Source: Asaccharospora irregularis DSM 2635 (GTDB lineage: Bacteria > Bacillota > Clostridia > Peptostreptococcales > Peptostreptococcaceae). From it: 64,000 nt of DNA. The first letter of the stretch is position 1. Each line of letters begins with the position of its first letter. Location: positions 1-64,000 of the forward strand of contig NZ_FQWX01000003.1 of the NCBI RefSeq assembly GCF_900129815.1, in the 5' to 3' direction. Below, one piece after another: positions 2,100 to 37,802 of the stretch. The notes below the pieces were generated by a model. The model worked only from the letters and a program-made list of their open reading frames with translations, did not search any database and was not told where the DNA came from. The position numbers and the translations under genes were made by a program.

Positions 2100-2109
2100 G
2101 AAATTTAAG

Positions 2110-2195
2110 GAAATAGCTAGGGGAGCCAATGAGCTGAGAGGTTTACCGACCCTTTATACCTGATCTGGATAATACCAGCGTAGGGAAGCTTAAAC
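2110..2195 (+). ncRNA. TPP riboswitch (THI element)
   Basis: Contains the two hallmark blocks of the thiamin pyrophosphate riboswitch: GGGGAGCC...GCTGAGAGG near 2120-2141 and CTGATCTGGATAATACCAGC at 2160-2179 followed by GTAGGGAAGCT. A terminator follows about 50 bases later, so binding of TPP most likely ends transcription before thiD. Confidence 0.96.
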
Positions 2196-2245
2196 ATAAA
2201 ATTTAAATATATAAATTATAAAGTATTTGTATATTATGTATGTTA

Positions 2246-9503: not shown

Positions 9504-11371
9504 ATGAAAAGTACAAAATTTTCTATAAAGAGTATAAAGAATATACCTAAAGATCCTAAGATAGTACATGCAAAAGGGGCGCTATTTGAAAAGGTAGGTA
9601 AAATAGATCAAGCACTAGAAGCCTATAAAGTTGCAGCATTAGATGATAATATAAAATCACAGTACACCTTAGGAAACATATATGCTAATAAAAGACAGTT
9701 TAAAGAAGCTGAAAAATGGTATTCTATGGCATATAGAAATGGATATGATGATGCTGCATTTGATTTAGGAAATATGTATTTTAAAATAGAAGGATATGAG
9801 TATTGCATTTATTGGTATGAAAAGATAGCTAAACTAGGCCATTTAGAAGCACAAAATAACCTAGGAGTTACACACTTTAAATTAAAGGACATAGAAAGAA
9901 GTGAGCATTGGCTAAGAGAGTCAGCAGACAGTAATTTTGCGAGAGCTTGTTTTAATTTGGGTGTATTATATAGTAATATAGGCAGAGAAGAAGAGGCCTA
10001 TGAATATTACAAAAGAGGATCAGTACTTTTAGATGACGACGCTAAGTATAATTTGGCTGTTTTAAACAATAAAACTAAAGATACTAAATCAGCTATAAGC
10101 CTTTACAAACAATTATACAAGTCAGGGCATGAAAAAGGTTGTTTTAACCTTGGAATACATATGGAGATAGATGGTAATTTGCAGGATGCAGAAAGATACT
10201 ATAAAAAAAGTGCAGATAGTGGCTATACAAAGTCTGAGTACAGGCTGGCGTATATATATGATAGATTTGAAGATCATGAGAATGCAATAGAGTATTATGA
10301 AAGAGCTGTAGAAAAAAACCATACCCTATCTAAATACAGGTTGGCAAATTTGTATAACAGGGAAAATGAAATTGAAAAGGCGAAACTATACTATCATATG
10401 GCAGCAGCAGATAATATGTTAGAGGCAAAAAATAATTTGGCTGGTCTATATTTTGAAGAAAAAGATTATGAAAATGCTATTAAATTCTATAATGAAGCAA
10501 TTGCAGACGGTTGCAAAAGTGCTATTGAAAATTTAGCAGATTTATATTTACAAAATGGAGATGTAGAGAGGGCGATATCTTATTATATAAGAAGTTCTAC
10601 AAAACTATCATCACAAATAAAATTGGGAAATATATACCTAGATTTAGATAACACTGAAGAAGCTATAGTTTGGTTTAAGAAAGCATCAGAAGCTGAAGAT
10701 ATAGAATCTACTTATAAATTAGGATGCATATATGAAAGCCTAAAAAATATAGAAGAGGCTAAGAAATACTTTATTTTGGCATATGAAGGAAATAACATAA
10801 ATGCTAACTTACATTTAGGAAGAATTTATATTATGGAAGAAAAACTAGAAGATGCAAAAAAATGTTTGAACTTCCTGCAAATGAAGATAATGTATATTCA
10901 CAACATATGCTTGCGTATATATATGACATCTATTATAAAGATTATACCAACTCCAAATACTGGTATGAAAAATCAAGAGCTCAAGGATGTGTAGAATCTG
11001 TATACAACCTAGGACAATTGAATTTTAAGCTAGGTGATTATGACTCAGCAGAAAAGTACTACAAAGAGGGAGTACAACTAGGAAGTAAAAAATGTGAATA
11101 TATGCTTGCAAACTTATACTACAAAAAGAGTATAGATATGCATAGAAAGCTAGCTAAAGAAAATTATGATGATTGTAGTAAAATAATTGAATCTGCTGCA
11201 GATATAAAATTAGACTTTTATGAAACATTAGTTCCAAAGTTTACTCTAATTGAAGAAAAAATAGATGAAGAAGAATATGTGCCTATTTATATACTAGATA
11301 TAAATGAAAATCTAGAAGATATGCTAGATGATTTGCAATATGAGATGATAATAGACGAACAAGAAGAATAG
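9504..11371 (+). CDS. TPR/Sel1-repeat protein interrupted by a -1 frameshift
   Basis: A long helical-repeat protein of some fifteen 34-37-residue TPR/Sel1 units (pattern: A-x-x-x-L-G-x-x-Y ... A-x-x-Y-Y-x-x-A) with a very acidic tail. The first frame starts at ATG 9504 (GGGAG upstream) and would end at 10994 with about 44 non-repeat residues. The repeat pattern continues at once in the -1 frame from about 10860 to 11371. The switch lies at GCAAAAAAATG (seven A, 10856-10862), in the phase of an A-AAA-AAA slippery site. One more A would give a continuous protein of about 622 residues. It may be a real mutation, phase variation, programmed slippage or a read error. Such proteins scaffold protein-protein contacts; partner unknown. 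Confidence 0.75.
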
Positions 11372-12668: not shown

Positions 12669-13604
12669 TTAGAGTAATTTATTCCGAGACATGAATGCAG
12701 TAACTACTAGACATATTATAGTTGTAATAAATAATATAACCCAAAATCCATTAGGAGTATTAGCAAAAGGAATATCAAGTACATTCATTCCAAAGAATCC
12801 TGATATAATAGTTGGAATTGAGAAAATTAGTGTAACAACTGTCAGAAACTGCATAACATTATTTTGGTTGTTACTTATTATAGCACTAAATGCATCCATA
12901 ATTCTGCTTAATATGTCTCCATATATATTAGCCATCTCAAGTGCCTGTCTGTTTTCAATGACAACATCTTCTAGTAAATCTTCATCATCAGGATATTTTT
13001 TTATAGTAGTAGCCCTGACCATTTTATTGAGTACTAGTTCATTGGCCTTTAGTGAGGTAGAGAAGTATACTAGAGATTTTTCTAGTTCTAGTAATTGAAT
13101 AAGTTCTTTGTTTCTCATAGAATTATAGATTTCACGTTCTATAACTGTAGTCATTTTATTTATTTTTCTCAAATAATGCAGGTAATAACTTGCATTTTTA
13201 TGAAGGATTTGTAAAATAAAACGAGTTTTTTTAAACGTATAAAAATCTTTAATATGTCCTACGATAAAGTCATTTAGAATTTTAGTTTGAGCAGTACACA
13301 CTGTTAATATAGCATCATCTACTATTATAATACCTAATGGAATAGTAGAGTAGTGGGAAGAGTTAGAGTCACTCTCATCTACTGGTATATCTATAAGTAT
13401 GAGTGTGTGGTTGTCCTCAATATCTATTCTTGAACGTTCTTCTTCATCTAATGCAGATTTTATATCTTCGATATCTACATTTAACAGCTCTGAAATTTCG
13501 TTAATCTCGCTTTGATTTGGTTCAACGAGATTTATCCAGCAGCCACTCTCAAAGAAACTAAGTTTTTCTAGTTTAGAATCAATAGTTTTATAATATCTTA
13601 TCAT
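12669..13604 (-). CDS. corA: CorA-family magnesium transporter
   Basis: A 311-residue divalent-cation channel. A long cytoplasmic domain with helical stretches (about residues 1-240) precedes two C-terminal membrane helices. The first ends in the selectivity motif GMN (FGMNVLDIPF), and the second is followed by the basic end MSRNKLL. CorA works as a pentamer and imports Mg2+, sometimes Co2+ or Ni2+. AAAGGATG lies before the ATG. The 515-base region upstream holds an unidentified folded element that may regulate it. Confidence 0.92.
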   Translation of the reverse strand: MIRYYKTIDSKLEKLSFFESGCWINLVEPNQSEINEISELLNVDIEDIKSALDEEERSRIDIEDNHTLILIDIPVDESDSNSSHYSTIPLGIIIVDDAILTVCTAQTKILNDFIVGHIKDFYTFKKTRFILQILHKNASYYLHYLRKINKMTTVIEREIYNSMRNKELIQLLELEKSLVYFSTSLKANELVLNKMVRATTIKKYPDDEDLLEDVVIENRQALEMANIYGDILSRIMDAFSAIISNNQNNVMQFLTVVTLIFSIPTIISGFFGMNVLDIPFANTPNGFWVILFITTIICLVVTAFMSRNKLL

Positions 13605-13643
13605 GGCAACACATCCTTTATTCAGTTTTATATAAATCTCATT

Positions 13644-13769
13644 ACTTAATATTATCCATTAAATAACTAATTTATATAATTGAATAAAGTAATTAGCTAA
13701 TAACTAGATAATATTAAGTGATGGTAAAAAAGTTTTTAGCCGCAACGGACTATGGTCCACTTCCATCAC
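13644..13769 (-). other. Unidentified structured element upstream of corA
   Basis: Two nested or adjacent folds. A long hairpin has a perfect 13-bp outer stem (13644-13656 with 13707-13719) and a partly paired AT-rich inner stem. Directly beside it, GTGATGG and CCATCAC (13763-13769 with 13718-13724) enclose GGACCATAGTCC and TTGCGGCTAAAAAC. The GC-richer core stands out from its surroundings. It lies 40-165 bases before corA on the same strand. It does not match the M-box or any other class I know. Confidence 0.4.
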
Positions 13770-14033
13770 TCTCCTGTAGTTTGAATTTTTTTACATAGTA
13801 CATATGCATATATAGAAGTCATATTGATTTAAGGTTTGTACAATTATGATTTCTGTATATGCATAGTGGCAAATATATCATAAAATAATTAAATATTTAG
13901 TATGAAATATTTTAGGACTCTTAAATAGAATACCTTGTTTAGAAATATAAATCAATATATCATCTAATTTATTTTGAATTTTTTCTAATATATTGAGCAT
14001 TTATTTATAAATAGATAAGTTTTTTATTTTGAA
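13770..14033. other. Intergenic region without visible genes
   Basis: AT-rich spacer between the folded element and the terminator of the nitronate monooxygenase-like gene. I see no open frame with a ribosome binding site on either strand. Confidence 0.5.
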
Positions 14034-17764: not shown

Positions 17765-17804
17765 TAAAAAAGACCCTCATCCCTAAAAAGGGACGAGAGT
17801 CTTA
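17765..17804 (-). terminator. T-box terminator
   Basis: AAGACTCTCGTCCC pairs with GGGATGAGGGTCTT, followed by a T run on the minus strand, immediately after the T-box core. Confidence 0.9.
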
Positions 17805-18012
17805 TTCCCGCGGTTCCACCCAAATTGATTTGAAAAATCCACTTGAAACTTTAACGTAGTCAAACGCCTATTCTTACTAAAATCTAGAAAAATAACTTCA
17901 GATAGGAGCTCATAGGTAGTTTTCAATCTCTCGTGTTAAGGAAACTTTTCAGCTTATAGGTTTCCATCTCTGTTAACTGATTTAGATTTACTCTTCCTAA
18001 TCATTGCTTTTA
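17765..18012 (-). ncRNA. T-box leader of thrC-thrB (threonine)
   Basis: Read on the minus strand, the leader has the AGTA-box region (GGAAGAGTAAAT) near its 5' end, GAGATGG, a distal hairpin GGAAAC/GTTTCC, and the invariant T-box GGGTGGAACCGCGGG at 17821-17807 followed by a terminator. The specifier region reads AAACTACCTATGAG; both ACT (17920-17918) and ACC (17917-17915) are threonine codons and I favour ACC by position. Uncharged tRNA-Thr should stabilise the antiterminator and switch on thrC and thrB. Confidence 0.92.
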
Positions 18013-18034
18013 AATATTCATAATAGTATTAATT

Positions 18035-37662: not shown

Positions 37663-37696
37663 AATATTCGGGAAGAAAATTAAATTTAATATAGGA

Positions 37697-37765
37697 ATCA
37701 TATAATTTTGACAATAAGGGTCATGAGTTTCTACCAGAATACCGTAAATGTTCTGACTATGATAC
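37697..37765 (+). ncRNA. Purine (guanine-type) riboswitch
   Basis: The three-way junction core is present: ATCATATAAT, then GAGTTTCTACC, then CCGTAAATGTTCTGACTATGAT closing the first stem. The base that reads the ligand is C (in TGACTATG), which specifies guanine or hypoxanthine instead of adenine. A terminator follows before the NCS2 permease, so guanine should switch the gene off. Confidence 0.95.
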
Positions 37766-37802
37766 TATTCTTGATTATTAATTAATCAAGCAGGAAAATA
37801 GG

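Follow-up and report, generated by a model that had tools for sequence, protein, structure and literature searches.

The window, a 64,000-nucleotide stretch of the Asaccharospora irregularis DSM 2635 genome, carries a gene for a CorA-like Mg2+ transporter of 311 amino acids (corA, 12669-13604, minus strand; ATG at 13604), identified as an ORF whose product matches PF01544 with an E value of 2.3e-57. A terminator-like hairpin (14076-14047) separates corA from the preceding minus-strand gene, so that corA probably has a promoter of its own; promoter-like sites before corA numbered 4 against 5.7 in shuffled sequences and so showed no excess. Downstream of corA, on the same strand, lies a Na/Ca-exchanger-family gene (PF01699; 11438-12445, minus strand) that is possibly co-transcribed with it. 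On the plus strand, within 9504-11371, the ORFs 9504-10994 and 10862-11371 overlap in different frames and both resemble parts of one TPR/Sel1-repeat protein, possibly representing a single frameshifted gene. Known RNA elements elsewhere in the window include a T-box leader (17786-18013, minus strand), a purine riboswitch (37678-37779, plus strand) and a TPP riboswitch (2109-2203, plus strand).

An earlier note, made from the letters of this DNA, had described an unclassified structured leader 40-165 bases before corA, and the sequences that it named were found on the minus strand at those offsets. GTGATGG and CCATCAC flank GGACCATAGTCC and TTGCGGCTAAAAAC, and a 13-bp stem formed by ACTTAATATTATC and GATAATATTAAGT follows. 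The minus-strand fold was better than those of all 200 dinucleotide shuffles (z -4.45; 0/200 as good), in agreement with a structured leader. The plus strand likewise folded well (z -3.06, 0/200 shuffles as good), a consequence of the near-palindromic second hairpin. CCATCAC, however, belongs to both stems, a point overlooked in the earlier note, and the two stems are therefore mutually exclusive.

The Rfam search that had been proposed for the leader returned no matching family. Among the Rfam 15 riboswitch families the best match to the leader stretch reached 20 bits, where the gathering score is 72, and the covariance model of the M-box riboswitch (RF00380) gave no match at its gathering score. 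The M-box too controls Mg2+ transporter genes, but no match to it turned up in the window leader or in the rest of the A. irregularis genome as searched (98.94% complete, 76 contigs), in which none of the 133 candidate places, all of them scored, was an M-box. The description of the locus as a conserved corA leader that is unclassified and is not an M-box thus held.

A DNA search for the leader matched 15 of 41 genomes, and an alignment of 13 leaders (A1) served as the basis of a covariance model, R1. Matches to R1 occurred in 42 of the 297 genomes of the order, 41 of them from the family of the window, the Peptostreptococcaceae, and by tblastn all 41 family matches end at the start of corA. 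The remaining match, outside the family (G257), was weak at 31 bits; the stretch fetched around it contained no corA, and we took it for a chance hit. R1 matches on the opposite strand are attributable to the nearly palindromic second hairpin (B:C, below). The family set comprised 71 genomes and an R1 match was absent in at least 20 of them. Among named family corA loci the peptide motif described below was present in 23 of 28, including four from Clostridioides difficile together with Romboutsia, Terrisporobacter, Intestinibacter, Peptacetobacter, Faecalimicrobium and further relatives; these named records are in part the same genomes as the R1-searched set, so that this count and the count of 41 leaders overlap. 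The five named loci without the uORF were three Metaclostridioides mangenotii records and two MAGs.

The earlier note had suggested that the leader might be a new metal-responsive element. A metal-binding function of its GC-richer core was not supported: a conserved upstream ORF (uORF; MDxSPL) begins there. In the window the uORF begins with GTG and reads VDHSPLRLKTFLPSLNII, ending in TAG (13704-13760, minus strand), behind a probable ribosome-binding site AGGAG at 13771-13775. A uORF of 16-24 codons that starts [AG]TGGAY behind a Shine-Dalgarno (SD)-like sequence at this position was present in 41/41 leaders; its start codon is ATG in 40 of the 41, from which the start in the window was assigned, and GTG in the window. 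The consensus peptide is M-D-x-[SIY]-P-[LIWS], with MDxxP in the leaders and VDxxP in the window, and besides the start only Asp2 and Pro5 are invariant. A C. difficile uORF reads MDTSPLRREFFTISSLNNI. If the window uORF started instead at the in-frame ATG at 13766, its product would be MEVDHSPLRLKTFLPSLNII (MEVDHSPLR...); as a start for all leaders the ATG of AGTGATGG was rejected, since outside the window, L065 and L071-L074 it is either missing or not in frame with the conserved peptide.

Codon-level tests favour synonymous change and thus support translation of the uORF. Among 21 distinct 21-base uORF starts compared pairwise, single differences were synonymous in 260 cases and not in 156, against 95 and 321 expected, in related sequences whose events are not independent. 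When the columns of codons 2-7 were permuted, 1 of 2000 trials scored as high as the observed sequences. In one genus a 9-base insertion within the uORF preserves the frame. From these patterns of codon substitution we infer that the uORF is translated. The uORF also contains a small hairpin, GGAC-CATA-GTCC (13747-13758, minus strand), with three of its four pairs invariant in the alignment, which coding alone could account for.

Folding and alignment predict that the leader adopts two mutually exclusive structures (all arms on the minus strand). Arm A (GAGTGATGG, 13763-13771), which overlaps the start region of the uORF, pairs with arm B (CCATCACTTAATATTATCTAG, 13704-13724), which contains the uORF stop codon and can pair instead with arm C (13638-13658). 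Between B and C lie the 5' strand of an inner hairpin, H3, with an anti-SD loop (CTTTATTC, 13689-13682), together spanning 13682-13700, and arm D (TTATATAAATTAGTT, 13665-13679), which pairs either with the H3 5' strand or with arm E. Arm E (13615-13638) ends at its 3' side in the corA ribosome-binding site AAAGG (13619-13615) and can base-pair with both D and the anti-SD loop. In the predicted OFF fold A:B and D:E hide the corA ribosome-binding site, whereas in the ON fold B:C and H3 leave it free.

Compensatory changes among relatives, named earlier as the means of checking the stems, were present, but in the larger alignment one fold showed no more of them than shuffled data did. In the 13 sequences of A1 the ON fold had 86.5% of cells paired and nine pairs changed on both sides, as high as none of 500 shuffles, and the OFF fold had 92.0% paired and four such pairs, a level reached by 5 of 500. 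A second alignment, A3, contained 29 of the 41 leaders, omitting the near-duplicates L040, L045, L049, L050 and L064 and the divergent L070-L076, and retained L066-L069, which it misaligns in two arms, lowering its counts. In A3 the ON fold had 32 doubly changed cells against 18.6 in shuffles (0/500), with no excess in the number of doubly changed pairs (9 against 7.7; 119/500 shuffles). The OFF fold was kept, with 87.4% of cells paired against 42-52% when slid, but its covariation was not above that of shuffles (0.063 in both; 266/500).

We folded the 13 A1 leaders with a 31-base ribosome footprint held unpaired, scoring a helix as formed at a threshold of six expected pairs. Without a ribosome, D:E formed in 12/13 and B:C in 1/13. 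A ribosome at the uORF start gave B:C in 8/13 and D:E in 7/13, leaving five of the 13 leaders that failed to switch; B:C was found in 7/13 with the ribosome at codon 2 and in 5/13 at codon 3, while a ribosome at the uORF stop gave B:C in 0/13 and D:E in 12/13. The window leader with a ribosome at the start was near balance (10.8 expected pairs for D:E against 8.0 for B:C). For transcripts ending after C, the probability of B:C without a ribosome exceeded 0.7 in 11 of 12 rows, and a nascent transcript could therefore pass through the ON fold. One result of the modelling runs against the scheme proposed below: the mean openness of the corA SD over 40 leaders was highest with the ribosome at the stop (0.55), compared with 0.31 for no ribosome, 0.34 for one at the start, 0.33 at codon 2 and 0.31 at codon 5. 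In this computation the footprint of a stop-bound ribosome extends over the anti-SD loop as well in many of the leaders.

We consider it likely that the corA leader is a translation-coupled attenuator that works like mgtQ of Salmonella and corL of enterobacteria. By analogy with these systems the signal would be Mg2+, the sensor destabilisation of the ribosome, and control would be exerted at translation rather than through Rho. The start region of the uORF (arm A) and its 3' end (arm B) sit in exclusive helices, so that the position of a ribosome on the uORF could select the fold. In the absence of a ribosome A:B would form and D:E would mask the corA SD (OFF). When Mg2+ is ample, ribosomes would proceed to the uORF stop, which lies within or immediately behind B, and block B:C, and D:E would again mask the site. 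When Mg2+ is scarce, ribosomes would falter or drop off within the first codons (Asp2 to Pro5), covering A and leaving B free; B:C and H3 could then form, D would be consumed and corA would be translated (ON). In line with this scheme, the A. irregularis genome has a gene for bL31.

Similar uORFs were identified before corA elsewhere in Bacillota. A class-level sample comprised 60 corA leaders, drawn from a total of 97 corA-bearing genomes; four of the 60 belong to the family of the window. A second sample of 47 corA leaders came from 47 of 199 genomes of the order of Neobacillus cucumis. In the class sample an SD-preceded uORF of the form M[DE]x(x)P was found in 14/60 leaders, 13 of which read MDxDP (e.g. 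MDADPGEK, MDCDPDSN and MDADPKRT), and the regular expression used detected no uORF in the other 46 clostridial leaders. Out of the 47 leaders of the Neobacillus order (L122-L151, L212-L228), 33 have behind an SD a uORF whose first 18 residues include a motif of the [DE]P[DE] type (EPDP, DPDP, EPEP). The expression used was written after viewing 30 of the 47; it matches 26 in that group and 7 among the 17 leaders added afterwards. Dinucleotide shuffles gave expectations of 0.3 motif uORFs for the class set and 0.1 for the Neobacillus order. An M-box on the same strand occurred in three of the 13 MDxDP leaders (two families; L164, L165, L170), where it stands in tandem with an MDCDP uORF in the same corA leader, against 1 of 20 leaders without the motif; in a fourth MDxDP genome an M-box lies farther upstream, 358 bases before its corA.

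The motif also occurs before a second type of Mg2+ transporter gene. One of the two mgtE genes of A. irregularis has in its leader a uORF, MDSSPLHLIRKIEYFIESIYSAIKYIVI (MDSSPLH...), behind AAAGGAG (L233, G000:C24, near 62000, minus strand), with the same peptide start as in the corA leaders. A strict pattern of SD and MDxSP[LW] was found at 26 places in 25 of the 71 family genomes, and at none in the reversed control; 24 of the 26 lie inside R1-matched corA leaders and one in the mgtE leader, which by this pattern is limited to A. irregularis among the 71. The last place, G238:C115:5563-5595 (L262), is a second SD-MDxSPL copy in one genome, on a contig other than that of its corA leader, and could be a duplicate contig.

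Three other explanations of the leader were weighed against the attenuator. Our first model, an aptamer, was dropped once the core proved to be codons. Under it the domain from A to B would bind Mg2+ or another ion, the ligand would stabilise A:B, D:E would hide the corA site and the reading frame would be incidental. A conserved core with a small hairpin enclosed by A:B and a pair of exclusive folds, typical of riboswitches by textbook description, agree with such an element. An aptamer should, however, have a conserved core unexplained by coding, and the core here varies codon-wise, with all four third bases in the Pro codon and C or T in the Asp codon; moreover, other Clostridia keep the peptide start and lose the hairpin GGAY....RTCC. 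We regard a metal-binding riboswitch as very improbable and, since the core is the start of a conserved uORF, the translating ribosome as more likely to be the sensor than an aptamer.

A ribosome-based sensor could have a different output or a different signal. The same leader peptide and Mg2+ signal could lead to Rho-dependent termination of transcription, as for corA and mgtA of E. coli and Salmonella: such termination has been reported within the corA leader of E. coli (PMC11552253), and a Rho gene is present in the A. irregularis genome. Control at translation is favoured by the anti-SD helix, which most leaders of close relatives retain (82% of cells paired), and, in 34 leaders from the Neobacillus order, by a corA SD that is largely base-paired (mean unpaired 0.12), but both are also compatible with Rho, an output that we consider unlikely. 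Alternatively, the uORF could sense another translational stress through proline, arginine, EF-P or initiation in general. That no residues besides the start, Asp2 and Pro5 are invariant, and that CorA transports further divalent ions (textbook), would accord with this, whereas the recurrence of the motif before mgtE in the same genome and its occurrence beside M-boxes do not; a single proline and the lack of runs of any one amino acid argue against classical attenuation. A signal of this kind seems rather improbable to us.

If the attenuator reading is correct, the ribosome would serve as a Mg2+ sensor for transporter genes far beyond enterobacteria. One peptide rule, an acidic residue with an early proline, would recur before corA in Clostridia and in the Neobacillus order and before mgtE in one genome, offering many natural variants with which to ask which residues of the nascent chain allow ribosomes to be dislodged at low Mg2+. 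Mg2+ uptake in C. difficile would gain an extra layer of control; a CorA-like transporter of C. difficile has been reported as essential (PMC12548448), its identity with the corA considered here not being established. We see about an even chance that leader peptides with an acidic-proline N-terminus (M-D/E-x-D/S-P, EPDP) act, through the Mg2+-starved ribosome that reads them, as a general Mg2+ sensor for corA, and at times mgtE, across Bacillota, parallel or related to CorL, MgtL and MgtQ, and that they can replace or back up the M-box.

The leader peptides mgtQ, mgtL and corL are reported to control Mg2+ transporter genes (PMC8092293, PMC11282234, PMC11552253). As in the corL and mgtQ types, a conserved uORF precedes a Mg2+ transporter gene in all 41 family leaders, and helices 1:2 and 3:4 alternate with 2:3 with the downstream ribosome-binding site in 3:4, the OFF fold being the weaker on 29 sequences. 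Salmonella mgtQ as reported (PMC8092293) shares with the corA leader this arrangement, a short uORF with Asp2 and an early proline, and a Mg2+ transporter gene downstream. It differs in lying between mgtC and mgtB, within an operon and before mgtB, and in belonging to a different phylum. The mgtQ peptide has Asp2, Pro4 and Glu5, and the effect of Asp2 and Glu5 was measured in it, whereas the corA leader is known by sequence.

Enterobacterial corL (PMC11552253, PMC6429828) is likewise described as a uORF before corA, with its start region in a stem and alternative ON and OFF folds. The ORF in the E. coli corA leader, annotated as ysgD, reads (M)DTPSRYWLTILSSRINS, and its start MDTPS compares with MDTSP in C. 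difficile. Neither R1 nor Rfam linked the leader to enterobacterial corL; the likeness is one of peptide starts compared by eye and may be convergent. The reported enterobacterial output is Rho-dependent termination, and removal of the corL start codon is reported to have raised corA (PMC11552253), whereas the present model predicts low expression. The published corA motif, with 325 representatives, is reported from Gammaproteobacteria only (PMC6429828).

MgtL, the mgtA leader peptide (PMC11282234), resembles the peptides described here in having acidic and proline residues in its first codons, and ribosome drop-off at low Mg2+ has been reported for it; it differs in its stronger motif EPDP, its gene, mgtA, and its reported Rho output. 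Repeated acidic residues or an early EPDP were lacking in the family peptides (MDxSP, MDxIP or MDxYP, with one invariant acidic residue), and the window peptide carries a single acidic residue close to its N-terminus, or two if the ATG is used, a weaker motif than EPDP. The MDxDP and EPDP relatives do have such acidic starts, and the Neobacillus-order peptides are nearer to E. coli MgtL than the window peptide is. In the open-licence literature no corA leader peptide of Gram-positive bacteria appeared in titles or abstracts among the matches listed, which does not prove absence. The earlier suggestion of a new metal-responsive element stands as far as the leader is probably Mg2+-responsive and a Gram-positive variant; sensing would proceed via a leader peptide, and the element is new only as a variant, since this type of control has been published for enterobacterial Mg2+ transporter genes. 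Set beside those systems, what is new here is apparently a Gram-positive form that seems to act at translation and has similar uORFs elsewhere in Bacillota.
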